A program made the position numbers and the translations under genes. This document shows positions 18,409 to 32,375 of a stretch of DNA of 32,626 nt, piece by piece. Positions within the stretch are counted from its first letter, which is position 1. Each line of letters begins with the position of its first letter. The DNA lies in assembly GCA_018712725.1 (NCBI GenBank), contig DVGN01000046.1:1-32626 (forward strand). Direction: 5' to 3'. The stretch comes from Candidatus Scatosoma pullicola. Its GTDB lineage: Bacteria; Bacillota; Clostridia; Christensenellales; Borkfalkiaceae. The notes under the pieces are model-generated. The model searched no databases and was not told the origin of the DNA. It saw only the letters and a list, made by a program, of their open reading frames with translations.

Positions 18409-18427
18409 AACTTCGACGTCCTCTTTC

Positions 18428-18723
18428 CATACCTCCCATTATGGTAAGGAAGTGTCACCCCTTTTTCCATGCTTCCCTTGTGGTAAGGGAGTGCTCTTTC
18501 TCCCCGTCTTCCCTTGTGGTAAGGAGGTGTTGCACCCTCCCATGCCTCCCCTTATAGTCGGGGAAGGTGTCGCACCTATCAACTATGTCTCCTTTTTGGA
18601 AAGGGAGTGGGGCAAAGCTCTCTCTTCATGCCTCCCCTTTTGGAAAGGGGAGGTGTCCCCACCCCATGCCTCCCCTTATGGTAAGGGGAGGTGTCACGAA
18701 GTGACGGAGGGGATAAGAAAGTC
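18428..18723 (+). repeat. tandem array of seven type B palindromes with 3' module
   Basis: Seven degenerate hairpins of about 26-29 bases start at 18428, 18468, 18505, 18541, 18584, 18627 and 18665, spaced 36-43 bases. The consensus is CATGCCTCCCCTTnTGGnAAGGGGAGGTG. Units nearest the 3' end are the most perfect; those at the 5' end are eroded. The last unit runs into the 43-base module identical to 8214-8256 (hairpin GTCAC-GAA-GTGAC then GGAGGGGATAAGAAAGTC). Spacers are short and variable, so this is not a CRISPR. Confidence 0.8.
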
Positions 18724-18752
18724 TGTTCTCGATGAAGAAAAATGAAACTCGT

Positions 18753-18892
18753 GCAGACAATCTCTCAGTCAGCTGCGCTGACAGCTCCCTTTGCACAAGG
18801 GAGCCAGGGGTGGGGGATGTGGTGTCGGTTCTCTTTGCGCAAGGGAGCCAAGGTTGGGCGGCTGTGCCGACAGCTTTTTCGCAAGGGAGCCA
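18753..18892 (+). repeat. type A palindromic repeats, one full and two partial units
   Basis: A full unit starts at 18753 with GCAGACAATCTCTCAGTC, has CAGC-TGC-GCTG inside, and ends with the hairpin GCTCCCTTTGCACAAGGGAGC (inverted arms GCTCCCTT/AAGGGAGC). Two shorter units end with AAGGGAGCC at 18849 and 18891, giving a period of about 42-44 bases. It corresponds to 7811-7870 but lies downstream of the type B array here and upstream there. Confidence 0.7.
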
Positions 18893-18933
18893 TGAAATGG
18901 AAGGAGGCGGCAGCTTTTTGTATAAAGGGGGGG

Positions 18934-20467: not shown

Positions 20468-20496
20468 TTGAGTTAAAGAAAAAATTGTGCTATAAT
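20468..20496 (+). promoter_or_regulatory. promoter of the dehydrogenase-fumC-hdr-flx-frd operon
   Basis: TTGAGT (20468-20473), 17 bases, TATAAT (20491-20496) with an extended -10 TG one base upstream. Transcription should start near 20503, leaving a leader of about 160 bases. I looked for a Rex-type TTGTTAA-TTAACAA operator and did not find one. Confidence 0.8.
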
Positions 20497-20572
20497 AGAA
20501 TAGCATAACGTGGGAAAATGGTCGGGTGAGCGAGCGCAGTGAAGCGCGTGTCCGGGTGGCTGTTTATCGGCA

Positions 20573-20597
20573 GGGCGGAAATCATCCGCCTTTTTTT
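20573..20597 (+). terminator. rho-independent hairpin inside the operon leader (possible attenuator)
   Basis: GGCGGA, loop AATCA, TCCGCC (20574-20590), then TTTTTTT, lying between the operon promoter and the first gene. A terminator here would cut the operon mRNA to about 95 bases unless bypassed. TCCG at 20551 can pair with CGGA of the stem and would compete with it, weakly. No known riboswitch class is recognised. There is no equally good promoter between it and the gene. Confidence 0.7.
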
Positions 20598-20663
20598 ACG
20601 GCCGGATTTCGGTTTGCACGGCTCTTTCGGCAGGACAAAATTCAACATACGGAGAATACAGGT

Positions 20664-21614
20664 ATGAACAACAAGGTTACTATCATCGGTGCAGGTTCTG
20701 TGGGCGCGACGATCGCATACACGCTGGTCGTGGACAGCCCCGTTTCGGAAATCGTTCTCATCGACGTCAATCACGACAAGGCGCGCGGCGAAGCGCTGGA
20801 CATCAAGCAGGCGACGCCTTTCCTCTCTCCCACGAAGGTGTACGAAGGGACGTATGAGGACGCGGAAGGCTCCGACATCGTCGTCGTGACCTCCGGGATC
20901 GGCAGAAAGCCGGGACAGTCCCGCATCGACCTGACGCAGACAAACGTGGACATCATCAAGAGCATCGCGCCCGAAATCGTCAAACACGCGCCCGACGCCA
21001 TTTACGTCATCGTCGCCAATCCCGTGGATATTCTTACCTATGTATTCGCGAAGGTGACGGGGCTGCCCAAGAGCCGGGTGTTCGGTTCGGGCACCATTCT
21101 GGACACCATCCGCCTGCGCACCCGCCTTTCCGAACTCTATTCCATCAACCAGAAGCAGGTGCACGCCTACGTTCTCGGCGAACACGGCGACACCTCTTTC
21201 GTGGCGTGGTCGACAGCGGATATCACGGGGATTCCCCTGAACGATTACGACGACGCGCTCACCAATAAATCCGTCCTGCCCATCACGCCCTATCAGCGGG
21301 AAGAGGTGGAGGAATACGTCCGCAAATCGGGCGGCAAGATCATCGCGGGCAAGGGGGCTACCTTCTACGGCATCGCCGCCTCCCTCTGCCACATCATCAA
21401 GTGCATCTATTCGGGCGCGGACACCGTGATGACCCTGTCCACCCTTCTGGAAGGGGAATACGGCATTTCCGACGTCTGCCTGTCCACGCTGTGCGTGTTG
21501 GGCAGCCGGGGTATTCTGTCCACGCTCGCGCCCAAGATGTCCGAAGAGGAAATGGCGAAATTCCGCCACAGCGCGGAGGCGCTCAAATCGGTCATCGCGC
21601 AGGTGAACATCTGA
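20664..21614 (+). CDS. ldh: LDH-fold NAD-dependent 2-hydroxyacid dehydrogenase with malate-type Arg
   Basis: A 316-residue member of the lactate/malate dehydrogenase family. It has the NAD motif IGAGSVGA, the active-site Asp147/Arg150 (GTILDTIR) and catalytic His174 (GEHGDTS). Overall sequence, including KGATFYGIA, is LDH-like and it would be annotated L-lactate dehydrogenase. The substrate-specificity residue, Gln102 in classical LDH (NQKPGETR), is Arg81 here (GRKPGQSR). Arg at that site binds the second carboxylate of oxaloacetate and turns LDH scaffolds into malate dehydrogenases. With fumC 10 bases downstream, oxaloacetate-to-malate is a natural role. GGAG lies 9 bases before the ATG; an in-frame GTG at 20526 is rejected because it reads through the leader hairpin. 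Confidence 0.9.
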
Positions 21615-21624
21615 GGTGACGGAC

Positions 21625-23001
21625 ATGGAATATCGCATCGAAAAGGATACGATGGGGGAGATGAAGGTCCCCGCCGATAAATACTGGGGGGCGCAGACGG
21701 AGCGCAGCCACGAAAATTTCCAAATCGGCACCGAAGTGATGCCGCGGGAAATCACCCACGCCTTCGGCATTCTCAAAAAGGCGGCGGCGCTCGCCAATTT
21801 CGAGCTGGGCATTCTTCCCGCGGAGAAAAAAGACTTGATCTGCGCGGCGGCGGACGAAGTGATCTCGGGAAGTCTCAACGAGCATTTCCCCCTCGTCGTC
21901 TGGCAGACGGGCAGCGGTACCCAGTCCAACATGAATGCCAACGAAGTCATCGCCAACCGCGGCAACGAGATGGCGGGCAAAAAGCTGCTGCACCCCAACG
22001 ACGACATCAATAAGAGCCAGAGTTCCAACGACACCTTCCCCACGGCGATGCACATCGCGGCGGTGATCGCGATAGAGGATTCTCTCTTCCCCGCGATGGA
22101 CAAGCTCATCGCCACCTTCCGCCGTCTGGAAGCGGAAAACGAAGGGATCGTCAAGAGCGGCAGAACGCATTTGCAGGACGCCGTTCCCGTCGCCTTCTCG
22201 CAGGAGATCAGCGGCTGGCGGAACATGATCGAAAAGACCAGGGCGCAGATTTCGCTGGCGCTGCCGGGGCTGAAAGAACTCGCGCTCGGCGGCACGGCGG
22301 TCGGCACGGGTCTCAACGCGCCCAAGGGCTTTGCCGAAAAGGTCGCCGAAAAGGTGAGCGAGCTGACGGGCAAGAAGTTCGTGACGGCGGAAAATAAATT
22401 CCACGCGCTCACGTCCAAGGACGATCTCGTATTCGCGCACGGCGGACTCAAAGCGCTGGCGGCGAACCTCATGAAGATCGCCAACGACGTGCGCTGGCTG
22501 GCGTCCGGTCCCCGCGACGGGCTGGGGGAGATCTTCATCCCCGAAAACGAGCCGGGTTCGAGCATCATGCCCGGCAAGGTCAACCCGACGCAGTGCGAAG
22601 CGATGACGATGGTCGCCGTGCAGGTGATCGCCAATGACGTGGCGGTCGGCATGGGGGCGTCGCAGGGCAATTTCGAACTCAACGTCTTTATGCCCGTCAT
22701 CATCTACAACTTCCTGCAATCGGTGCGGCTGCTGGCGGACGGGATCACCTCTTTCGAAAAGAACTGCGTCACGGGGATTCGCGCCAACCGCGAAAAGATG
22801 AAGCACAACCTCTACAATTCGCTCATGCTGGTCACGGCGCTCAACCCGTACATCGGGTACGAGAACGCGGCGAAGACGGCGAAGAAGGCGTATAAGGAAA
22901 ACATCTCCCTGAAAGAGGCGTGTGTGGCGCTCGGATTTCTGACTGCGGAGAAGTTCGACGAGGTGTTCAAGCCCGAAGAAATGGCGTACCCGCAGAAATA
23001 A
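21625..23001 (+). CDS. fumC: class II fumarate hydratase
   Basis: Interconverts malate and fumarate without an iron-sulfur cluster. The 458 residues begin [12 protein letters not shown], the usual FumC start, and contain the superfamily signature [11 protein letters not shown] near residue 312, the B-site/active-site regions [10 protein letters not shown] and SGRTHLQDA. The ATG at 21625 is preceded by GAGG 8 bases upstream, next to the stop of the dehydrogenase, so the two are translationally close. In this operon it would supply fumarate to the FrdA-like flavoprotein encoded 7 kb downstream. Aspartase is the main alternative in the superfamily, but the sequence reads as FumC. Confidence 0.95.
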
Positions 23002-23018
23002 AAAAGGGCATATAAGAT

Positions 23019-23798
23019 ATGAAGATCAGTTATTATCCCGGCTGTACCCTGAAAACCAAGGCGAAGGATCTGGACGTGTACGCCCGCCTTTCCGCCGCGG
23101 CTTTGGGGATAGAAATGGAAGAAATCGAAAATTGGCAGTGCTGCGGCGCGGTGTATCCGATGGCGCGGGACGAGATCGCCACCAAGCTCTCGGCGGTGCG
23201 CGCGCTCGATTACGCCAAGCATCACGGCGGGAAGCTGCTCACCCTCTGTTCCGCCTGCCACAACGTCATCAAGCGGACGAACGAAGACATGCGTTCGGAT
23301 AAGGACATCTCTTCGCGCGCGAACAACTATCTCGCGCTCGAAGAGCCGTACAGAGGGGAGACGCAGGTTCTGCACTATCTCGAACTCCTGCGCGACGTCG
23401 TGGGCTTTGACAACATCGCCAGAAAGGTGGTAAAGCCCCTGAATAAGAAGGTGGGCGCCTATTACGGATGCCTGCTGCTCCGCCCGAGCGGCGTGATGGC
23501 GTTCGACGACCCGGAAAATCCGCACATCATCGAAGATTTTATCCGCGCGATCGGCGGCACCCCCGTCGTCTATCCCTTCCGAAACGAATGCTGCGGCGCG
23601 TACGTGGCGCTCAAAAATGCCGAACTTCCCAAAAAGCGGAGTACCATGGTTTTGACGAGCGCGAAGGAGAAGGGGGCGGAAGAGGTCATCACCGCCTGCC
23701 CGCTCTGCCTGTATAACCTGCAGGCGAACGGGGAGGGAATTCTGCCCGTCCGCTATTTCACCGAACTTTTGGCGGAAGCATTGGGGGTGAAAGAATGA
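23019..23798 (+). CDS. hdrB: heterodisulfide reductase subunit B-like (CCG-domain) protein
   Basis: A 259-residue protein with two complete CCG repeats: Cys9, Cys41-Cys42, Cys77, Cys80 and Cys151, Cys191-Cys192, Cys227, Cys230. In methanogen HdrB these bind two non-cubane [4Fe-4S] clusters that cleave a disulfide. Bacteria lack CoM-S-S-CoB, so the partner must differ. In Desulfovibrio the DsrC disulfide has been proposed for Flx-Hdr, but no dsrC is in this window. It starts the hdrB-hdrC-hdrA-mvhD series and overlaps hdrC by 4 bases (ATGA), implying coupled translation. The fumC gap is 17 bases. The cysteine set is intact, so the clusters should form. Confidence 0.92.
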   Translation: MKISYYPGCTLKTKAKDLDVYARLSAAALGIEMEEIENWQCCGAVYPMARDEIATKLSAVRALDYAKHHGGKLLTLCSACHNVIKRTNEDMRSDKDISSRANNYLALEEPYRGETQVLHYLELLRDVVGFDNIARKVVKPLNKKVGAYYGCLLLRPSGVMAFDDPENPHIIEDFIRAIGGTPVVYPFRNECCGAYVALKNAELPKKRSTMVLTSAKEKGAEEVITACPLCLYNLQANGEGILPVRYFTELLAEALGVKE

Positions 23799-24181
23799 CG
23801 AGAGAAGAACAGAAAGAAAATCTCCTCCGCATGAGCGGCACGGACGTGAGAAAGTGCATGAAGTGCGGCAAGTGTTCGGGGCGCTGCCCCGCCTTCCGCG
23901 AGATGGACATCAAGCCCCATCAGTTCGTCTCCCTGCTCGCGCAGGGGAAGGTGGAGAAGCTGCTCGCGGGGAAGGCGATCTGGAACTGCCTCTCCTGCAT
24001 GGCATGCGTGGAGCGCTGCCCGCGCGGCGTCGCGCCCGCGGCGGTGGTGGAGGCGGTGCGGGACACCGTCGTGCGGATGCAGAACGGAAACGGCATAAAG
24101 GCGGAGGACATCCCGCCCATCGTGGACGAACTCATTCCCCAGCAGCTCCTCGTCAGCGCGTACAGAAAGTACAACAAATGA
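23795..24181 (+). CDS. hdrC: heterodisulfide reductase subunit C-like ferredoxin protein
   Basis: A 128-residue protein with two classical [4Fe-4S] motifs, CMKCGKCSGRCP (Cys21-31) and CLSCMACVERCPRGV (Cys65-75). It is the HdrC subunit that wires HdrA to HdrB. Length and motif spacing match stand-alone HdrC. The helical C-terminus lacks extra domains. It overlaps hdrB, and hdrA follows after 21 bases. Confidence 0.92.
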   Translation: MTREEQKENLLRMSGTDVRKCMKCGKCSGRCPAFREMDIKPHQFVSLLAQGKVEKLLAGKAIWNCLSCMACVERCPRGVAPAAVVEAVRDTVVRMQNGNGIKAEDIPPIVDELIPQQLLVSAYRKYNK

Positions 24182-24202
24182 ATTTGAAAAGAGAGTTATA
24201 AC

Positions 24203-26194
24203 ATGCAAAGAATCGGTGTTTTTATCTGTTGGTGCGGAAGCAACATCGCCGCGACGGTGGACGTGGAACGGGTGGCGGAAGTCATCCGCCGGGAGCCGGG
24301 CGTGGTCTTTTCCGCAAACTATCAGTACATGTGTTCGGAGAACGGACAGCAGCTCGTCAAAAACGCGATCAGGGAATACAATCTGACCGCGGTCGTCATC
24401 GGTTCCTGTTCTCCCCGGATGCACGAAGCCACCTTCCGCAAGGCGGCGGAAGAGGCGGGGCTGAATCCGTACATGGTGGAGATCGCCAACATCCGCGAGC
24501 ATTGCTCGTGGATCCATAAGGACAGGGAAGAGGCGACGGAAAAGGCGCTCGTCCTCGTCCGCACGGCGATCGCGAAGGTCAATCTCGACGCGCCTTTGCA
24601 GGTGGGCGAAAGCCCCGTCACCAAGCGGGCGCTGGTCATCGGCGGCGGCATCGCGGGCATCCAGGCGGCGCTCGACATCGCGGAGGCGGGGTTCGAAGTG
24701 GACATCGTGGAGAAAAATCCCACGATCGGCGGGCGCATGGCGCAGCTGGACAAGACCTTCCCCACCCTCGACTGCTCGGCGTGCATCCTCACCCCCAAGA
24801 TGGTGGACTGCGCTCAGAACGAGAAGATCGACATCCTCTCCTATTCGGAAGTGGAGGAGGTCAAGGGCTTCGTCGGCAACTTCACGGTGAAGATCCGCAA
24901 AAAGGCGCGGTACGTGGACGAGACGAAATGCACGGGCTGCAAGGTGTGCATGGAAAAATGCCCGTCCAGAAAGGGACTCAACGAGTTCAACATGGGGCTG
25001 AACAACCGCACGGCGATCTATATCCCGTTCGCGCAGGCGATCCCCAACGTGGCGGTCATCGACCCCGAACAGTGCATCAAGCTCAAGACGGGCAAGTGCG
25101 GCATCTGCCAGAAGTTCTGCGGCGTCGGCGCCATCGACTACACGATGAAGGACGAATTCGTCGAGCGCAAGTACGGCGCGATCGTCGTCGCCACCGGCTT
25201 CCGTCCCATGAAGCCGGATAAGTTCAACGAATACGGCTATGCGGACAATAAAGACGTCATCACTTCCCTCGAATTGGAGAGGCTGATGAACGCGGCGGGG
25301 CCTACGGACGGCGTCCTGCTCCGCCCTTCGGACGGCAAGCATCCCAAGGTCATCACCTTCATCCAGTGCGTCGGTTCCCGCGATACGTCGGGCTGCGGCA
25401 AGCCGTACTGCTCCAAGATCTGCTGCATGTACACCGCCAAGCACGCGATGCTCATCCGCGAGAAATACCCCGACACCGAAGTGCACGTCTTTTACATCGA
25501 CGTCCGCACGCCGGGCAAGAATTACGACGAGTTCTACCGCCGCGCGGTGGAACAGTACGGCGTCGATTACATCAAGGGCATGGTCGGGAAGGTGTATAAC
25601 GAGAACGGCAAGCTGATGGTGCAGGGCTCCAACCTCATCGACAACGAGCAGGTGGTCATTCCCTCCGATCTCGTCGTCCTCGCCACGGCGATCGAGCCGG
25701 AACCCTCCGTGCGGAAGGTGGCGACGCTGCTCACGGCGAGCATCGACACCAACAACTTCCTCACCGAGTCGCACGCCAAACTCCGCCCGGTGGAGAGCCC
25801 GACGGCGGGCGTGTATCTCGCCGGCGTCTGCCAGGGACCCAAGGACATCCCCGAAACGGTGTCCCAGGCGTCCGCGTGCGCGGCGAAGGTCATCGGACTT
25901 CTCGTCAAGGATAAACTCAAAACCAATCCCTGCATCGCGCATCCCGACGAATCGATGTGCAACGGGTGCAGCCAGTGCGCCAATGTCTGCGCTTACGGCG
26001 CGATCACTTACGTCGACAAGGAATTCCGCCTGGGCGGCGGCAAGACGGAAGTGCGGCGGGTGGCGTCCGTCAATCCGGCGGTCTGCCAGGGCTGCGGCGC
26101 CTGCACGGTGACCTGCCCTTCGGGCGCGATGGATTTGAGCGGATTCAGTTCCGGACAGATCATGTCGGAGGTGGAAGCGATATGCAAGATGTAA
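24203..26194 (+). CDS. hdrA: heterodisulfide reductase subunit A-like flavoprotein
   Basis: The 663-residue FAD protein that performs flavin-based electron bifurcation in Hdr complexes. Order: an N-terminal domain with FICWCG and GSCSPRMHE; a thioredoxin-reductase-like FAD site (VIGGGIAGIQAAL, 145-157); DCSACILTPKM (190-200); an inserted ferredoxin region (CTGCKVCMEKCP, 243-254, and KCGICQKFC, 298-306); the second FAD half with ATGFRP and YLAGVCQGPKDIPE; and a C-terminal two-cluster ferredoxin (CNGCSQCANVC, 586-596; CQGCGACTVTC, 628-638). All clusters appear intact. It would take electrons from the MvhD/Flx side and split them between ferredoxin and HdrB. Weak ribosome site (AAAAGAGAG). It overlaps mvhD by 13 bases. 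Confidence 0.94.
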   Translation: MQRIGVFICWCGSNIAATVDVERVAEVIRREPGVVFSANYQYMCSENGQQLVKNAIREYNLTAVVIGSCSPRMHEATFRKAAEEAGLNPYMVEIANIREHCSWIHKDREEATEKALVLVRTAIAKVNLDAPLQVGESPVTKRALVIGGGIAGIQAALDIAEAGFEVDIVEKNPTIGGRMAQLDKTFPTLDCSACILTPKMVDCAQNEKIDILSYSEVEEVKGFVGNFTVKIRKKARYVDETKCTGCKVCMEKCPSRKGLNEFNMGLNNRTAIYIPFAQAIPNVAVIDPEQCIKLKTGKCGICQKFCGVGAIDYTMKDEFVERKYGAIVVATGFRPMKPDKFNEYGYADNKDVITSLELERLMNAAGPTDGVLLRPSDGKHPKVITFIQCVGSRDTSGCGKPYCSKICCMYTAKHAMLIREKYPDTEVHVFYIDVRTPGKNYDEFYRRAVEQYGVDYIKGMVGKVYNENGKLMVQGSNLIDNEQVVIPSDLVVLATAIEPEPSVRKVATLLTASIDTNNFLTESHAKLRPVESPTAGVYLAGVCQGPKDIPETVSQASACAAKVIGLLVKDKLKTNPCIAHPDESMCNGCSQCANVCAYGAITYVDKEFRLGGGKTEVRRVASVNPAVCQGCGACTVTCPSGAMDLSGFSSGQIMSEVEAICKM

Positions 26195-26637
26195 CCAAAG
26201 AATATTCCCCCAATATCGTGGCGTTCTGCTGCAATTGGTGTTCGTATGCGGGGGCGGATCTCGCGGGATCCAGCCGTCTCAGCTATCCCGCCAACGTCAA
26301 GATCATCCGCGTGCCCTGCTCCTGCCGGGTCAATCCGATGTTCGTGCTGAAGGCGTTCCAGCGGGGGGCGGACGGGGTCATCCTCTGCGGCTGCCATCCC
26401 GGCGACTGCCATTACGTCACGGGCAACTACTATACGCGGCGGCGGATGGCGCTGCTGTTCAGTTTTCTCGACTATCTCGGTATCGAACGGGAACGCACCC
26501 GCGTGGAGTGGGTTTCCGCCGCGGAGGGCGCGCGCTTTTCCGCCGTCATGAACGATTTCGTCAGGACGGTGGCTTCGCTCGGCGAAAACAAGCGGCTTAC
26601 CGATCTCAGGTGCAAGGAGGAAACGGAAAATGCGTGA
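26182..26637 (+). CDS. mvhD: MvhD/FlxD-family [2Fe-2S] protein
   Basis: A 151-residue protein with the MvhD cysteine pattern: FCCNWCSYAGADLAG (Cys16, 17, 20), VPCSC (46, 48) and CGCHPGDC (69, 71, 76). In methanogens MvhD hands hydrogenase electrons to HdrA; in bacterial Flx-Hdr the homologue FlxD hands over NADH electrons. The start is the ATG at 26182, with GGAGG 10 bases upstream inside hdrA; the ORF can be read from 25957, but that part is a shadow of hdrA. No hydrogenase genes (mvhAG) are present, so the donor is most likely the NAD(P)H protein at 28630. Confidence 0.92.
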   Translation: MQDVTKEYSPNIVAFCCNWCSYAGADLAGSSRLSYPANVKIIRVPCSCRVNPMFVLKAFQRGADGVILCGCHPGDCHYVTGNYYTRRRMALLFSFLDYLGIERERTRVEWVSAAEGARFSAVMNDFVRTVASLGENKRLTDLRCKEETENA

Positions 26638-27616
26638 CGTGGAACTCAAGATGAAAGAGAGGGCGGCGGCGCTTTTGAAGAGCGGCGAAGTCGCCCGCGT
26701 GATCGGCTGGAAGAAGGGCGAATTTTACTTCGACCCCAGCCCCGCCTCCTTCGAGACGGAAGAGGAGCTTTCGGAATTCGTGTACAACGGATTCTGCGGC
26801 GCCAATCTCTCCAAATACCTCATCGCGGCGAGCAAGAAGCCGGGAAAAACGGCGGTATTTCTGAAACCCTGCGATACATACAGCTTCAATCAGCTCGTCA
26901 AGGAACACCGCGTCGCGCGCGAGAACATCCTCGTGATCGGCGTCGAATGCCAGGGGAAACTCGACATCGAAAAGATCCGCCGCAAGGGCGTGACGGGCGT
27001 CACGGAAGTGGAGGAAGAAAAGGACGGCGTGGAGGTCACTTCCCTGTACGGGACGGATAAGTTCCCGCGGGAGGAGATCCTGCTGGAAAAGTGCCTGTGC
27101 TGTAAGGGCAAGAAGTTCATGGTCGCGGACGAGACCATCGTCCTGCACGAGATGCCCGAAACGAAAAACGACCGTTTTGCGGGCGTGGAAAAGCTGGAAA
27201 AGATGACGGCGGAAGAGCGGTTTGCCTTCTGGCAGAAGGAACTGTCCAAGTGCATCCGCTGCAACGCCTGCCGCAACGTCTGCCCGGCGTGTTCGTGCGT
27301 GAAATGCGTGTTCGACAACCCCGCGTCGGGGATCGCCGCCAAGGCGAACGATACGTCGTTCGAAGAGCAGATGTTCCACATCATCCGCGCCTTCCACGTG
27401 GCGGGGCGCTGCACCGACTGTGGCGAATGCAGCCGCGTCTGCCCGCAGCACATCCCCCTGCATCTTCTGAATCGCAAATTCATCAAAGACATGGATACCC
27501 TGTACGGGGAATTTCAGGCGGGCGAGACCGCCGACGGCAAGACGCCCCTGACCGAATATACGGAAGGGGACGCGGAGCCGAAGGACGCATTCAAGGCGGA
27601 GGGACAAAATGCTTAA
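26630..27616 (+). CDS. FrhB/AsrA-like protein with two [4Fe-4S] motifs (FlxB/FlxC type)
   Basis: A 328-residue protein. The N-terminal half resembles the FrhB/FdhB-like domain (KPCDTYSFNQLVKEHRV, then ILVIGVECQG) with a CLCC pair (155-158). The C-terminal half is a two-cluster ferredoxin: CIRCNACRNVCPACSCVKC (from 208) and CTDCGECSRVCPQHI (261-275). It corresponds to one of the two iron-sulfur subunits (FlxB, FlxC) of Flx-Hdr complexes; I cannot tell which. The N-terminal domain might bind flavin, as FrhB does. It overlaps mvhD by 8 bases with AAGGAGG upstream, so expression is coupled. The last ~30 residues are an acidic tail without clear homology. Confidence 0.82.
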   Translation: MRDVELKMKERAAALLKSGEVARVIGWKKGEFYFDPSPASFETEEELSEFVYNGFCGANLSKYLIAASKKPGKTAVFLKPCDTYSFNQLVKEHRVARENILVIGVECQGKLDIEKIRRKGVTGVTEVEEEKDGVEVTSLYGTDKFPREEILLEKCLCCKGKKFMVADETIVLHEMPETKNDRFAGVEKLEKMTAEERFAFWQKELSKCIRCNACRNVCPACSCVKCVFDNPASGIAAKANDTSFEEQMFHIIRAFHVAGRCTDCGECSRVCPQHIPLHLLNRKFIKDMDTLYGEFQAGETADGKTPLTEYTEGDAEPKDAFKAEGQNA

Positions 27617-28637
27617 AATCGCAAAAGAAAAACTCGGCGGGCTGTATGGGGAGATATCCGCGTCCATGCCCCTCTGGCTGCCCGTGAAAAAGGCGGGCGA
27701 AGTCAATTACGCCCCGTATAAAGAGGACGCCGAAGTCTCTCTCGAAACCCTCAAGACGGTCAAGTCCCCCAAGGATCTGTTCTTCCCGCAGAGCGAAGAG
27801 ATGATGCGCTTCAAGACGGAGGGCAAGAACATCGAGATCATCGACGTGCGGACGGAGAAACAGCCCTTCGTGCTGTTCGGCGTCAAGGGGTGCGATTTCC
27901 GCGCCTTCGACGTCTTGGACAACGTCTTTCTCGACGAGCCGGTGGACACCTATTACAAGGAGCGGCGGGAGGCGGCAACGGTCGTCACGCTCGCCTGTTC
28001 GCGGCCGGAAGAGAGCTGTTTCTGCAAGGTGTTCGGCATCGACGCGACGGCGCCCGGCGGGGACGTCACGACCTGGCTGGACGAAAAATACCTCTATTGG
28101 CAGCCCAACACCCGAAAGGGCGAAGCGCTCACGGAAAAGGTGAAGGGGCTGTTCGAAGAGGGGGGCGAAAGCGAAGTGGAAGCGCAGCGGGAAAAGACGA
28201 AGGAGATCGTCGATAAGCTCCCCTTCTCCGCGCTCAATCTCTCCCGCTTCAAGCCGGAAAATCTCAACGAACTCTTCGATCTGCCCGTCTGGCAGTCGCT
28301 GTCCGAAGCCTGTCTCGGCTGCGGGGCATGCACGTTCGTCTGCCCCACCTGCCAGTGCTTCGACATCCGGGATTTCAGGACCAACGACGGGATCATCCGC
28401 TTCCGCTGCTGGGATTCCTGCATGTATTCCGACTTCACGCAGATGGCGGCGGCGAACAGCCGCACGACGCAGATGCAGCGGTACCGCCAGCGGTTCATGC
28501 ACAAGCTCGTGTATTATCCCGCCCGCTACAACGGCGTGTATTCGTGCGTGGGGTGCGGCAGGTGCGTCAACAAGTGCCCGCAGCATCTCAACATCGTCAA
28601 GGTGGTCAAAACGATAGGAGGCGAGAAGCATGATTAA
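27609..28637 (+). CDS. AsrA/sulfhydrogenase-beta-like iron-sulfur protein (FlxB/FlxC type)
   Basis: A 342-residue protein of the family of anaerobic sulfite reductase subunit A and sulfhydrogenase beta. Markers: FGVKGCDFRAF near residue 90, LACSRPEESCFC (128-139), CLGCGACTFVCPTCQC (235-250), FRCWDSCMYSDFTQMA, and CVGCGRCVNKCPQHL (313-327). In Asr and Flx complexes this subunit carries electrons between the NAD(P)H flavoprotein (next gene) and the partner enzyme. No sulfite reductase siroheme subunit (AsrC) is present, so sulfite reduction is unlikely. It overlaps both neighbours by 8 bases. Confidence 0.85.
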   Translation: MLKIAKEKLGGLYGEISASMPLWLPVKKAGEVNYAPYKEDAEVSLETLKTVKSPKDLFFPQSEEMMRFKTEGKNIEIIDVRTEKQPFVLFGVKGCDFRAFDVLDNVFLDEPVDTYYKERREAATVVTLACSRPEESCFCKVFGIDATAPGGDVTTWLDEKYLYWQPNTRKGEALTEKVKGLFEEGGESEVEAQREKTKEIVDKLPFSALNLSRFKPENLNELFDLPVWQSLSEACLGCGACTFVCPTCQCFDIRDFRTNDGIIRFRCWDSCMYSDFTQMAAANSRTTQMQRYRQRFMHKLVYYPARYNGVYSCVGCGRCVNKCPQHLNIVKVVKTIGGEKHD

Positions 28638-29457
28638 CGAAAATCTCATTCCGAAAATCGGCGTGATCACGGACATCCGCCGGGATACCCCCGACGTCAA
28701 GACCTTCCGGGTCGTGGGCACGGACGGCAAAAAGCTGTTCGAGCATATGCCCGGTCAGTGCGCGATGGTCTCCGTGCCCGGCGCGGGCGAGTGCATGTTC
28801 TCCATCACCTCTTCGCCGACGAACGAAGAATACATGGAATTTTCCATCAAGAAGTGCGGCTGCGTGACGAGCATCATCCACTCGCTGGAAGTGGGGCAGC
28901 AGATCACCGTGCGCGGTCCCTACGGCAGGAATTTCCCCGTCGAAGGGGAGTTCAGGGGTAAAGACCTCCTGTTCATCGCGGGGGGCATCGGGCTGGCGCC
29001 GCTGAGGAGCGTCATCAACTACGTCCGGCATTACAGAAAGAATTATGGCAAAGTCGTCGTCGTGTACGGCGCGCGGAGCAAGGACGATCTCGTAGACATC
29101 GAAGAGATTCAGAGCGAATGGGAAAAAGAACCCGATTTCAAGGTCTATCTCACGATCGACCGCCCGCAGGAGGGCTGGGACGGACACGTCGGATTCGTGC
29201 CCGCCTACGTCAGCGAACTGGGGCTGGATCCCTCGATGACGGCGGTGCTGTGCGGTCCGCCCATCATGATCAAATTCACGCTGGCGGGGCTTTTGCAGCT
29301 CGGCTTTGACAAATCCCGCGTATATACGACGCTGGAACTGAGAATGAAATGCGGCATCGGCAAGTGCGGCAGGTGCAACGTGGGGGACAAATTCGTCTGC
29401 AAGGACGGCCCCGTCTTCCGCTTTGACGAGCTGGACGAACTGCCCGACGAGTATTGA
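28630..29457 (+). CDS. flxA: NAD(P)H:FAD/[2Fe-2S] electron-entry protein (FlxA/AsrB/PyrK-like)
   Basis: A 275-residue ferredoxin-NADP reductase-fold protein. The FAD region includes GQCAMVSVPG and FSITSSP; the NAD(P) region includes FIAGGIGLAPLRSVI and VLCGPPIM. The C-terminus has the PyrK-type [2Fe-2S] set Cys241, Cys246, Cys249 and Cys257 (MKCGIGKCGRCNVGDKFVC). It resembles FlxA, AsrB and sulfhydrogenase gamma. It is the only NAD(P)H-binding subunit in the Hdr/Flx/Frd set, so it is the predicted entry point for NADH. AGGAGG precedes the ATG; it overlaps the previous gene by 8 bases. Confidence 0.9.
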   Translation: MINENLIPKIGVITDIRRDTPDVKTFRVVGTDGKKLFEHMPGQCAMVSVPGAGECMFSITSSPTNEEYMEFSIKKCGCVTSIIHSLEVGQQITVRGPYGRNFPVEGEFRGKDLLFIAGGIGLAPLRSVINYVRHYRKNYGKVVVVYGARSKDDLVDIEEIQSEWEKEPDFKVYLTIDRPQEGWDGHVGFVPAYVSELGLDPSMTAVLCGPPIMIKFTLAGLLQLGFDKSRVYTTLELRMKCGIGKCGRCNVGDKFVCKDGPVFRFDELDELPDEY

Positions 29458-29472
29458 TTGGAGGAAGAAGCA

Positions 29473-30147
29473 ATGGAAAAAACGGTCAACGTCTATTTTT
29501 TCGGCAAGAGGTATCAGGTGCCCGAAGACCTCACCATCATGAAGGCGATGGAATACGCGGGGTATCAGTTGGTGCGCGGATGCGGCTGCCGGAACGGATT
29601 CTGCGGCGCCTGCGCCACCATCTACCGCATCAAAGGTCAGCAGGAGCTTAAAACCTGTCTCGCCTGCCAGACGCAGGTGGAAGAGGGCATGTACGTCGCC
29701 ACTCTTCCCTTCTTCCCGCTCGTCAAGCAGGTGTACGACATCGAAAAGATCAGGCCCACCCAGCAGATCATGATGCAGCTGTACCCCGAAATCTATTCGT
29801 GCATCGGCTGCAACGCCTGCACCAAGAGCTGCACCCAGGGGCTCAACGTCATGCAGTACATCGCCTACGCGCAGCGCGGCGAATACGAGAAGTGCGCGGA
29901 GGAGAGCTTCGACTGCGTCATGTGCGGCGTATGCTCCGCCCGCTGCCCGGCGGGCATCTCCCATCCGCAGGTGGCGGAACTTGCGCGGCGGCTCACGGGC
30001 AAGTACATCGCGCCCAGGAGCGAGCATCTCGAAAAGCGGGTGCAGGAGATCGGCGAAGGCAAATTCGAAGCCTTGCTCGAAAGCCTGATGGGCAAGCCCG
30101 TCGAAGAGCTGAAAGAACTGTATAATCACAGAGTCATCGAGAAATAA
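29473..30147 (+). CDS. frdB: fumarate reductase iron-sulfur subunit-like protein (FrdB/TfrB N-terminal type)
   Basis: A 224-residue protein. Residues 1-90 are a ferredoxin domain with [2Fe-2S] ligands in GCGCRNGFCGACATIY and CLAC (62-65). Two [4Fe-4S] motifs follow, CIGCNACTKSC (110-120) and CVMCGVCSARCP (148-159). Usual FrdB/SdhB has one [4Fe-4S] and one [3Fe-4S]. Two complete 4Fe-4S motifs recall TfrB of methanogen thiol:fumarate reductase, whose C-terminal HdrB-like half is absent here but present as the separate hdrB gene. I start at the ATG at 29473, 6 bases after GGAGGAAG, rather than the TTG at 29458. frdA follows after 11 bases. Confidence 0.85.
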   Translation: MEKTVNVYFFGKRYQVPEDLTIMKAMEYAGYQLVRGCGCRNGFCGACATIYRIKGQQELKTCLACQTQVEEGMYVATLPFFPLVKQVYDIEKIRPTQQIMMQLYPEIYSCIGCNACTKSCTQGLNVMQYIAYAQRGEYEKCAEESFDCVMCGVCSARCPAGISHPQVAELARRLTGKYIAPRSEHLEKRVQEIGEGKFEALLESLMGKPVEELKELYNHRVIEK

Positions 30148-30158
30148 AGGAGAAGCGT

Positions 30159-31763
30159 ATGTATCAGTACACCGAAGAACAGATTGTCTCCATGAAGAAG
30201 GTGGAAGCGACGCGCGCTTCCCGTCTGGGCGCGGAACTCCGCCGCATGACGGCGGAGGAAAAGGACGAAGTCCTCGCTTCCTTCCATCCCGATTATATCG
30301 CGTCCGCCTACGAAGAACTCAAAGCCGGCCCCAATAAAGGGGGCAAAGTCCTGCACGAGCTCGCCGCGCTCCTGCAGGGGCGCTCCCGCGTGCTGGGCAA
30401 AAAGATCGATCTGAAAAATCCCGATTACGACGTGGACGTGCTCGTCATCGGCGGCGGCGGCGCGGGCTCTTCCGCGGCGATCGAAGCGGATAACTGCGGC
30501 GCCAACGTCATGATCGTCACCAAACTCCGCCTGGGCGACGCCAACACCGCGATGGCGGAAGGGGGCATCCAGGCGGCGGATCGGGAGAACGACAGTCCCG
30601 CCATTCACTATCTCGACGCGCTGGGCGGCGGGCATTTCAAAAACAAGCCCTCCCTGCTGTACAAACTCGTCACCGAAGCGCCCGAAGCGATCAAGTGGCT
30701 GAACGACCTCGGCGTCATGTTCGACAAGGCGCCCGACGGAACGATGATCGAAACGCACGGCGGCGGCACGTCCGTCAAGCGCATGCATGCCTGCCGCGAC
30801 TATTCCGGCTCCGAAATCATGCGGGTGCTGCGGGACGAAGTCCTCAACCGCGGCATCACGGTGGTGGATTTTACCTCCGCCATCGAACTCATCAAGGACA
30901 AAGAGGGCAAGGCGGCGGGCGCCGTTCTCCTGAACATGGAGACGGGCGAAATTCTCGTCGCGCGCGCCAAGACGGTCATCATCGCCACGGGCGGCGCGGG
31001 GCGGCTGCACTACCAGGGCTTCCCGACCTCCAATCACTACGGCGCCACGGCGGACGGGCTGGTACTCGCCTATCGCGCGGGCGCAAAGCTCCTCTATCCC
31101 GAAACCCTGCAATATCATCCCACGGGCGCGGCGGCGCCCACGCAGATCTTCGGCGCGCTCGTCACCGAAAAGGTGCGTTCGCTGGGCGCGCAGCTCGTCA
31201 ATAAAGAGGGCGTGGCGTTCGTCAATCCTTTGGAGACCCGCGACGTCACCGCGTCGTCCATCATCCGCGAATGCAAACAGAACGGCGGCGGAGTCAGGAC
31301 GGCGGACGGCGAAGGGGTCTGGCTGGATACGCCGCTCATCGATCTTCTCAACGGAGAGGGGACGATCGAAAAGCGCATCCCCGCCATGCTGCGCATGTTC
31401 GGGAAATACGGCATCGACATCCGCAAGGAGCCCATTCTGGTCTATCCGACGCTGCACTATCAGAACGGCGGCATCGACATTTCTCCGGACGGCATGTCGG
31501 GCGTGGAAAATCTGTACGTCGCGGGCGAAGCGGTCGGGGGCATTCACGGCACCAACCGCCTGATGGGCAACTCCCTCCTGGACGTCATCGTGTTCGGCAG
31601 AAACGCGGGAAAGCACGCGGGCGAAAAGAGCAAAACGGTGAAACTCGGCGCGCTCACGCTCGATTTTGTCAAGGCGTTTGAAAAGGAATTGGAGGGGGCA
31701 GGGTTGCGTCCATCGATGCCTTCGCCCCGCCTTCTGCCCGATTACAGAAGAAAGGATCTTTAA
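30159..31763 (+). CDS. frdA: fumarate reductase flavoprotein subunit with N-terminal extension, non-covalent FAD predicted
   Basis: A 534-residue FrdA/SdhA-family protein. The FAD motif VLVIGGGGAGSSAA (94-107) comes after an unusual ~90-residue, mostly helical extension. Catalytic residues of the family are present: His320 (LQYHPTG), Glu337/Arg340 (VTEKVR), Arg361 (ETRDVTAS) and His433 (TLHYQNGGI), plus GNSLLDVIVFGR. The usual covalent-FAD His (SHTxAAEGG) is replaced by Asn129 (ANTAMAEGG), so FAD should be non-covalent, which in known enzymes favours fumarate reduction over succinate oxidation. No FrdC/FrdD anchor genes follow, so it is probably soluble. Other 2-enoate reductases of the family are possible, but fumC in the operon supports fumarate. 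Confidence 0.88.
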   Translation: MYQYTEEQIVSMKKVEATRASRLGAELRRMTAEEKDEVLASFHPDYIASAYEELKAGPNKGGKVLHELAALLQGRSRVLGKKIDLKNPDYDVDVLVIGGGGAGSSAAIEADNCGANVMIVTKLRLGDANTAMAEGGIQAADRENDSPAIHYLDALGGGHFKNKPSLLYKLVTEAPEAIKWLNDLGVMFDKAPDGTMIETHGGGTSVKRMHACRDYSGSEIMRVLRDEVLNRGITVVDFTSAIELIKDKEGKAAGAVLLNMETGEILVARAKTVIIATGGAGRLHYQGFPTSNHYGATADGLVLAYRAGAKLLYPETLQYHPTGAAAPTQIFGALVTEKVRSLGAQLVNKEGVAFVNPLETRDVTASSIIRECKQNGGGVRTADGEGVWLDTPLIDLLNGEGTIEKRIPAMLRMFGKYGIDIRKEPILVYPTLHYQNGGIDISPDGMSGVENLYVAGEAVGGIHGTNRLMGNSLLDVIVFGRNAGKHAGEKSKTVKLGALTLDFVKAFEKELEGAGLRPSMPSPRLLPDYRRKDL

Positions 31764-31778
31764 GGAGTAAACAGCGGT

Positions 31779-32117
31779 ATGGGAACGTTTGCAACTATTT
31801 TTGAAATCGTCATGGTGCTTTGTTTCGGGGCGTCCTGGCCCTTCAACATCGTCCGCGCCTATAAGGCGAGAACGACCAAGGGGACCAGCCTGCAATTCAC
31901 GATTTTGATCGGGATCGGCTACATCGGCGGGATTTTGAGCAAGATTTTCGCGTCGGCGGATCAGGGCGCCGGCTATTGGAAGCCGCTGACGGTGCTTGCG
32001 TTTGTCTTTTATATCATCAATCTGTGCATGATTCTGACGGCGCTCGCGATCTATTTCCGGAATAAGAAGCTGGACGCCGCACGGGCTGCGGCAGGGAAGG
32101 CGGAGAAAGCCGAATAA
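31779..32117 (+). CDS. PQ-loop (SemiSWEET-like) small membrane protein
   Basis: A 112-residue protein with three membrane segments (about 5-20, 38-56 and 70-93) and a Lys/Ala/Glu-rich cytosolic tail. The first helix ends in SWPFNIVRAYKARTTKGTSL, matching the PQ-loop pattern with Phe in place of Gln, as in some SemiSWEETs, which work as dimers. SemiSWEETs move small sugars, but the substrate here is unknown. AAGGAG precedes the ATG and only 15 bases separate it from frdA, so it is the last gene of the fumarate/Hdr operon. Confidence 0.75.
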   Translation: MGTFATIFEIVMVLCFGASWPFNIVRAYKARTTKGTSLQFTILIGIGYIGGILSKIFASADQGAGYWKPLTVLAFVFYIINLCMILTALAIYFRNKKLDAARAAAGKAEKAE

Positions 32118-32140: not shown

Positions 32141-32175
32141 AGACGCCCCCGCGCGATGGCGCGGGGGCGTCTTTT
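32141..32175 (+). terminator. strong terminator of the fumarate/Hdr operon
   Basis: AGACGCCCCCGCGC pairs perfectly with GCGCGGGGGCGTCT (14 bp, loop GATG), followed by TTTCTTT. Confidence 0.93.
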
Positions 32176-32285: not shown

Positions 32286-32375
32286 GCAGAGATGGCGGAG
32301 CGGCTGAACGCGCACGATTCGAAATCGTGTTATGCAGGAATGTATACGAGGGTTCAAATCCCTCTCTCTGCGCCA
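32286..32375 (+). tRNA. tRNA-Ser (anticodon CGA)
   Basis: A 90-base class II tRNA with encoded CCA. The acceptor GCAGAGA pairs with TCTCTGC, the discriminator is G (32372), and CCA lies at 32373-32375. The anticodon stem CACGA/TCGTG encloses TTCGAAA with anticodon CGA at 32320-32322, reading UCG. A long variable arm (TTATGCAGGAATGTATAC) marks tRNA-Ser. The T arm is GAGGG-TTCAAAT-CCCTC. Confidence 0.97.

Follow-up and report, generated by a model that had tools for sequence, protein, structure and literature searches.

A candidate soluble electron-bifurcating NADH:fumarate reductase operon in Candidatus Scatosoma pullicola

Closest described systems

A soluble, electron-bifurcating fumarate reductase has been proposed for the "succinate operon" of Pseudoclostridium thermosuccinogenes (CDQ83_RS03365-RS03315), as set out in the available portion of the paper describing it (PMC7282089, 2020). 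We analysed a stretch of DNA from Candidatus Scatosoma pullicola that carries a similar set of genes. The window, by which we mean this whole stretch of 32,626 nucleotides, is contig C13 of a 1.99-Mb draft genome estimated to be 89.8% complete. At 20664-32117 it holds twelve plus-strand genes in the order mdh, fumC, hdrB, hdrC, hdrA, mvhD, flxC, flxB, flxA, frdB, frdA and a gene for a small membrane protein. We estimate at about 65% the probability that this operon encodes the reductive branch from oxaloacetate through malate and fumarate to succinate, together with a soluble bifurcating Flx-Hdr-Frd complex that would reduce fumarate with NADH.

By its published description, as far as the available text goes, the P. 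thermosuccinogenes operon runs through a fumarase, Flx-Hdr (RS03360-30), a fumarate reductase (RS03325-20) and a hypothetical protein regarded as a possible succinate transporter, in the same order as here. The Flx-Hdr range amounts to seven tags if these are numbered by fives (our count). That text names no mdh within the operon, whereas mdh is the first gene here, and the likeness between the two rests on the described gene content and order. It also reports an approximately 4-fold increase of the operon at low CO2, which was not significant for every subunit (PMC7282089). The operon in the window belongs to this published kind, and the idea of its function is not new. A 2019 preprint by Koendjbiharie and van Kranenburg is said to have proposed the role of the P. 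thermosuccinogenes succinate operon. The first-pass annotation of this DNA stated that no characterised enzyme of this combination was known to it; this stands insofar as no biochemical test of it was found in the open-access literature (subscription papers and bioRxiv lay outside the scope), but both the arrangement and the hypothesis had already been published for P. thermosuccinogenes. In the same literature we found no description of a wide occurrence in metagenome-assembled genomes (MAGs) of Clostridia, of aspartase-linked or permuted variants, or of FrdBA with other partners. Passages on P. thermosuccinogenes tools, on Rnf and on propionate, and those of a review on bifurcation, say nothing about this enzyme.

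The Flx-Hdr part corresponds by domain content to FlxABCD-HdrABC of Desulfovibrio vulgaris, with the same HdrA, HdrB, HdrC, MvhD/FlxD, FlxA, FlxB and FlxC types, given the FlxB and FlxC assignment that we take to hold in Desulfovibrio. Ramos and colleagues reportedly described that complex in 2015 as an NADH dehydrogenase/heterodisulfide reductase. The features of Flx-Hdr present in the window are the HdrA FAD domain with its E/K pair, the HdrB CCG domains, the HdrC clusters, MvhD, FlxA, FlxB and FlxC. In Desulfovibrio the operon is associated with alcohol or aldehyde dehydrogenases, and frdBA is not mentioned in the available portion of the source (PMC4287179).

Three fumarate reductases were also compared. 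TfrA of the methanogen TfrAB enzyme is the best NCBIfam model for FrdA, and the parts of TfrB correspond to FrdB, HdrC and HdrB, which are separate subunits here. Membership in TfrAB was rejected on the scores (TfrA 341.8 bits, cut-off 718; TfrB 36.6 bits, cut-off 385) and on the lack of a CCG domain on FrdB. With complex II/quinol:fumarate reductase the operon has in common the fold and active-site residues of Escherichia coli FrdA. Unlike complex II, it has no membrane anchor gene and no covalent-FAD His, its FrdA bears an N-terminal extension of about 90 residues, and its FrdB has two full [4Fe-4S] motifs, where the iron-sulfur subunit of complex II carries a [3Fe-4S] cluster. The third, the methylmenaquinol:fumarate reductase (MFR, SdhABE), is taken up with HdrB below.

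Operon content and gene order

The gene calls and the operon were confirmed, and none of the twelve genes contains an internal stop. All of the genes first named are present on the same strand, though what had been counted as eleven co-directional genes are twelve when the small membrane protein is included. The overlaps measure 4, 13, 8, 8 and 8 bases and the remaining gaps are short, in keeping with the 4-13 base overlaps or short gaps noted earlier from hdrB to frdA and consistent with a single transcript. Families were assigned from Pfam and NCBIfam scans, in which matches to most Hdr and Flx models fell short of the equivalog cut-off. The scans agree with the initial naming of FumC, HdrB, HdrC, HdrA, MvhD, an FlxA-like protein, two AsrA/FrhB-like Fe-S proteins, and FrdB- and FrdA-like proteins.

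The first gene (mdh, 20664-21614) encodes the LDH-fold enzyme that the first-pass annotation had recognised. It exceeds both the L-LDH equivalog and the malate dehydrogenase subfamily cut-offs in NCBIfam, so the profiles alone are ambiguous. An Arg (R81, within GIGRKPG) occupies the substrate-specificity position in 45 of 45 rows; this count, like those of 61, 82 and 86 rows below, covers near-complete proteins only. By the Gln/Arg-102 rule, under which we take Arg at this position to mark the malate dehydrogenase type, the gene is assigned to malate dehydrogenase, and lactate dehydrogenase was rejected. The second gene (fumC, 21616-23001) encodes a class II fumarase (TIGR00979, 733 bits against a cut-off of 665). 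A GTP-dependent PEP carboxykinase (GTP-PEPCK) is present elsewhere in the genome, and the ATP type was not found in this 89.8%-complete assembly. Together, mdh, fumC and GTP-PEPCK make up a predicted reductive route from phosphoenolpyruvate (PEP) to fumarate.

An alignment scan of species genomes with FrdA gave at least 554 relatives, of which the best 80 were kept; these represent the closest relatives, and several of eight relatives fetched separately recur among them. By frdA, the closest named relative among the matches listed is Candidatus Scatosoma pullistercoris (Bacillota, Clostridia), at 92% identity. By title, most of the best 80 are MAGs assigned to Clostridia or Oscillospiraceae and one is Planctomycetaceae; animal guts are the source of many. 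All eight fetched relatives hold the nine-gene core from hdrB to frdA in identical order; all eight also have fumC, and seven have mdh. Among the best 80 named loci the core is complete in 55, on one strand and with gaps of less than 300 bases, and in the other 25 the core genes follow in unbroken order to within 805 bases of a contig end. The recurrence of this gene order in related genomes, which the first-pass annotation had proposed looking for, was therefore found (8 of 8, and 55 of 80 complete), and no counterexample to the core order appeared among the best 80 of at least 554 relatives. Because the order recurs in the examined relatives with room for the operon, it is, on this comparison, not due to chance.

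What precedes the core varies. Upstream of the 55 complete cores, mdh-fumC was found in 42, fumC alone in nine and neither in four; among the nine with fumC alone, one had no room for mdh, and eight had 1.3-1.5 kb of upstream sequence in which no mdh was recognised. In Ilyobacter polytropus (Fusobacteriota), the same nine genes (44-66% identity) stand behind an aspartase and ahead of an aspartate aminotransferase family gene, so that fumarate would be supplied there by a reaction different from that of fumarase. The fumarate-forming genes 5' of the core thus differ in chemistry, with fumC in 51 of 55 loci and aspartase in Ilyobacter.

A phylum-wide sample contained FrdA matches at E ≤ 1e-100 in 24 of 249 genomes, our own included. 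For the distant set, 20 of 24 non-own matches were fetched (G220, G245, G050 and G270 were left out), and four were extended. Four distant loci hold all nine genes in a permuted order (frdB-frdA-hdrB-hdrC-hdrA-mvhD-flxC-flxB-flxA), two of them behind an aspartase-like gene (by best tblastn match), and they form a separate FrdA clade. In the tree of 38 FrdA rows, which took 13 hand-picked loci of the 80 named ones, the rows with the full module fall into two separated clades, and the starred branches can be explained only by three or more gains or losses. By this tree, FrdBA was joined to full Flx-Hdr more than once, or the combination was lost repeatedly. One further distant locus holds hdrC-hdrB-frdB-frdA only, and FrdBA, as read from these loci, is a module found with several partners.

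Subunits and proposed electron path

In the mechanism we propose, NADH would reduce FlxA, and electrons would pass via FlxB/FlxC and MvhD to the flavin of HdrA. From there, one electron of each pair would travel via HdrC and the CCG clusters of HdrB, passing straight to FrdB and on to the flavin of FrdA, where fumarate is reduced to succinate, and the other would leave via the ferredoxin domain of HdrA to ferredoxin. The net reaction would be 2 NADH + fumarate + Fd(ox) -> 2 NAD+ + succinate + Fd(red). Potentials of +33, -320 and -420 to -500 mV give -49 to -33 kJ/mol under standard conditions for the coupled reaction, and -68 kJ/mol for NADH to fumarate alone. A soluble NADH-driven fumarate reductase is the likely function. 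Ferredoxin-coupled bifurcation with a direct HdrB-FrdB wire is unproven, but we hold it to be the more probable arrangement.

At the entry side, flxA (28630-29457) encodes an AsrB/HydG-like FAD/NAD(P)H-binding protein with a [2Fe-2S] site (PF00970, PF00175, PF10418). An AsrA/sulfhydrogenase-beta-like Fe-S protein is encoded by flxB (27609-28637; PF17179, with ShyB, HydB and AsrA profiles below cut-off), and a dicluster ferredoxin protein with Fer4 domains by the flxC-like gene (26630-27616). FlxB and FlxC are named from their position and from similarity to AsrA and ferredoxin. The [2Fe-2S] linker MvhD/FlxD (26182-26637) matches PF02662 at 185 bits.

The FAD/Fe-S bifurcation subunit HdrA (24203-26194) can be aligned over its full length with Methanothermococcus HdrA (5odc, 696 bits) and scores 800 bits against the HdrA2 profile (cut-off 1100), which is covered collinearly by HdrA and then by MvhD at the profile's C-terminus. 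HdrA keeps the Cys residues of its ferredoxin-type C-terminal domain, and E359 and K413 (equivalent to E356 and K409) are kept in 63 of 63 rows. According to the available part of one study, this pair was proposed to separate bifurcating from non-bifurcating proteins, yet it occurs in most HdrA proteins (PMC12054007), so it is no proof of bifurcation. The commonness of the pair leaves room for a non-bifurcating soluble NADH:fumarate reductase, in which Flx-Hdr would be a mere wire delivering all electrons to fumarate; the transfer from NADH is strongly downhill and needs no coupling. We regard this as unlikely, given the retention of both the ferredoxin-domain Cys and the E/K pair, the seemingly uneconomical use of seven Flx-Hdr subunits as a wire, and the occurrence of FrdBA pairs elsewhere without Flx-Hdr.

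The exit side begins with HdrC (23795-24181; TIGR03290, below cut-off), whose two [4Fe-4S] motifs keep all eight cluster Cys in 61 of 61 rows, and HdrB (23019-23798), which carries two CCG domains (PF02754 in two stretches; HdrB and SdhE profiles below cut-off) with all ten cluster Cys kept in 61 of 61 rows. Complete CCG motifs would also suit a shuttle in which Flx-Hdr reduces a disulfide and a thiol or other carrier then reduces FrdBA separately. The thiol:fumarate reductase of methanogens is a precedent, and no hdr gene lies near 12 of the 20 distant frdA loci. Flx-Hdr is moreover described as an electron donor to ferredoxin and thiols in the available portion of the P. thermosuccinogenes paper (PMC7282089). 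Against such a shuttle, FrdB has no counterpart of the CCG domain in TfrB, and the only CCG matches in the genome are the two domains of the operon's own HdrB. DsrC was not found in the genome, although only 1 of 14 control genomes was positive for it, and the minimal hdrC-hdrB-frdB-frdA locus exists. A shuttle is quite unlikely in our estimate, and less likely than direct transfer from HdrB to FrdB. Direct transfer is supported by that minimal locus, by the SdhE model being the top match of HdrB, and by the TfrB profile, which matched FrdB (19-99), HdrC (124-219) and HdrB (262-465) in order, weakly but collinearly.

That top match raises the question of a quinone-linked enzyme, with HdrB as an SdhE-type subunit and FrdBA-HdrB resembling MFR. 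The best NCBIfam score of HdrB is indeed to the MFR SdhE model, but at 132 bits it falls far below the cut-off of 500; FrdA reaches 226 bits of 1100 against MFR SdhA, and FrdB has no match to MFR SdhB at E ≤ 0.001, so membership in SdhABE was rejected. No UbiA was found in the genome, whereas 14 of 14 control genomes were positive, and hydropathy gave no membrane-like hydrophobic segment in any subunit from hdrB to frdA, HdrB, FrdB and FrdA included. A quinone-linked Frd was rejected on these grounds and would be extremely improbable.

FrdB (29458-30147, with the likelier start an ATG at 29473) carries a [2Fe-2S] and two [4Fe-4S] motifs. Its cluster Cys are invariant in 24 diverse rows, and a few of the 82 close rows differ at single Cys positions. 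Structure and sequence searches returned generic Fe-S, Rnf, complex I, HdrC- and SdhB-like matches, with no specific relative among them.

FrdA (30159-31763) is predicted to be a soluble fumarate reductase flavoprotein with noncovalent FAD. The FAD_binding_2 domain (PF00890) lies at 93-473, and the predicted fold (pLDDT 86) matches E. coli FrdA (Foldseek E 1.2e-31, TMq 0.67); the structure predictions took in no Ilyobacter rows. An alignment with complex II enzymes places H320, T336, E337, R361, H433 and R467 at the fumarate site. The first five are conserved in 86 of 86 rows, R467 in 84 (the other two being gaps), and all six in 20 of 20 distant rows. We take these to act as in complex II enzymes, with R361 as the proton shuttle alongside the His, Thr-Glu, His and Arg residues. 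FrdA very likely acts on fumarate/succinate. The N-terminal extension holds residues invariant in 26 of 26 diverse rows, including rows without Hdr neighbours. Aspartate oxidase was rejected for frdA; the genome's other FrdA-like match (on C24) is a NadB-like protein, 30-32% identical and just under the NadB cut-offs. The frdA of one relative (L017, 11343-12923) has one in-frame TAG stop and was left out of the FrdA alignments. Separately, FrdA-like proteins 47-48% identical occur on Cupriavidus and Paraburkholderia plasmids (L025, L026), with the match covering part of the N-terminal extension.

At the position of the complex II covalent-FAD His, FrdA has N129 in 86 of 86 rows, a set partly selected by a pattern containing N129, and in 20 of 20 distant rows that were not so selected. 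According to the available part of a 2023 review (PMC10238741), binding FAD covalently lifts its potential by about 100 mV and is a prerequisite for oxidising succinate, so that N129 in place of the His favours the reductive direction. This bears on whether the complex might run in reverse in vivo, as a confurcating succinate dehydrogenase making 2 NADH from succinate and reduced ferredoxin, since some distant FrdBA loci lie beside sucCD or 2-oxoacid:ferredoxin oxidoreductase genes, a setting compatible with an oxidative direction there. Such a reaction would be uphill by 33-49 kJ/mol under standard conditions, and mdh, fumC and GTP-PEPCK would form a reductive branch. We consider the reverse direction very improbable.

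As for the ferredoxin reduced by a bifurcating complex, no RnfC match exceeded the cut-off in the genome (six were weak and partial), and the Ech-type subunit Complex1_49kDa was not found, against 11 of 14 positive controls. Three [FeFe]-hydrogenase matches were present. With neither Rnf nor Ech found, reduced ferredoxin would most likely go to [FeFe] hydrogenases or biosynthesis.

Besides the wide occurrence of the E/K pair, several points weigh against a bifurcating NADH:fumarate reductase. All absences from the genome come from an 89.8%-complete MAG, the predicted FrdB model is moderate (pLDDT 80, pTM 0.59), and the donor may be NADH or NADPH. The evidence in the prior case of P. thermosuccinogenes, in the available text, is transcriptional and flux-based. 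In the four complete loci with neither mdh nor fumC, no aspartase was recognised either in 2.5-2.9 kb of upstream sequence. The 12 of 20 distant frdA loci without an hdr gene in the fetched stretch (three of which begin at a contig end, while one, L128, has no recognised frdB) imply that Frd can use other donors or serve other pathways; the neighbours of hdr-less frdA include pyruvate carboxylase, class I fumarase with malic enzyme, an mdh-like gene, malic enzyme and succinyl-CoA ligase. Finally, three distant loci (L114, L116 and L125) have Hdr and MvhD but no FlxA beside 2-oxoacid:ferredoxin oxidoreductase-like genes, neighbours that were family-scanned in one of the three. There, hdrC-hdrB, three or four HdrA-like stretches, mvhD and a weak flxC match precede frdBA, which may represent a different Hdr-Frd combination for a TCA-type pathway. 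The bifurcating NADH:fumarate reductase put forward in the first-pass annotation fits the sequence and comparative evidence, with nothing contradictory, but the hdr-less loci weigh somewhat against an exclusive partnership between Frd and Hdr.

Five of the hdr-less frdBA loci (L118, L127, L129, L130 and L131) encode an extra protein with a shared N-terminal pattern of approximately PVxRxRLxSxG. Some copies have CxxCGNC-like Cys, and the protein is a possible alternative electron donor subunit.

We consider there to be slightly better than even odds for a broader view, in which FrdBA wired directly to HdrB without a thiol is a further natural high-potential partner of HdrABC, next to heterodisulfide and other disulfides. 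The soluble bifurcating NADH:fumarate reductase would then have been combined more than once, would be an overlooked source of succinate and ferredoxin/H2 in quinone-less gut Clostridia and some Fusobacteriota, and FrdBA would be a plug-in acceptor for several donors. If so, many quinone-less fermenters that make succinate would save energy in the form of reduced ferredoxin, and hence of H2; redox accounting for communities forming succinate, propionate and H2 would change, and the high-potential exit of HdrABC could be re-plugged to a carbon substrate. With the gene set wide and spread over at least two FrdA clades, the published hypothesis would be directly testable in cultured organisms such as I. 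polytropus.

Transcription signals and neighbouring features

The promoter that had been placed before the operon corresponds to a plus-strand site TTGAGT-17-TATAAT at 20468-20496 with an extended -10, matching the consensus at 10 of 12 positions. Shuffled sequence gave 3.7 sites where the region itself has five, which puts the bare number of sites at chance level. A TTG...TATAAT site lies 5' of mdh in at least 15 of 40 other loci examined, ten of which are near kin (L027, L029, L031-L034, L036, L038, L039 and L015). Two 9/12 sites lie at 24184-24213, before hdrA, and at 24354-24382, within it, and another lies inside frdA. A separate transcription start before frdB was also looked for, and the scan has no plus-strand site from 24382 to frdB.

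Between promoter and mdh is a leader of about 100 nt (20497-20600) with its own terminator-like hairpin followed by T7 (20572-20592, plus strand), a possible attenuator. In 25 genomes, a search with the leader found its own copy, one clear copy (87%) in the nearest relative and two short matches, and an Rfam scan returned no family, with matches at chance level only. The leader may act as an attenuator or encode a small RNA. At the other end of the operon, the strong terminator first seen there was located as a 13-bp GC-rich stem (32142-32171) with a T-run to 32179 on the plus strand; a simple terminator scan recovered just part of it.

The last gene of the operon (31779-32117) encodes a small protein with three hydrophobic segments, and its homologues carry an SWP...(R/K)(T/S)xKGxS stretch, presumably reminiscent of SemiSWEET proteins. 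The first-pass label of a PQ-loop protein fits these features, but no Pfam or NCBIfam model matched. Of 75 loci long enough to show it, 15 have the gene directly 3' of frdA, and our guess is that its product might export succinate.

Just 3' of the operon terminator is a tRNA-Ser(CGA) gene at 32286-32375. Upstream of the operon, at 18418-18900, is a short palindromic repeat array of six copies of about 32 nt, mostly 36-39 nt apart, followed by three of about 41 nt. A related 19-bp pattern, CTCCCTTNNGNNAAGGGAG, has 100 matches in the 2-Mb genome, 50 on each strand, where the reversed control has 0, and is REP-like.

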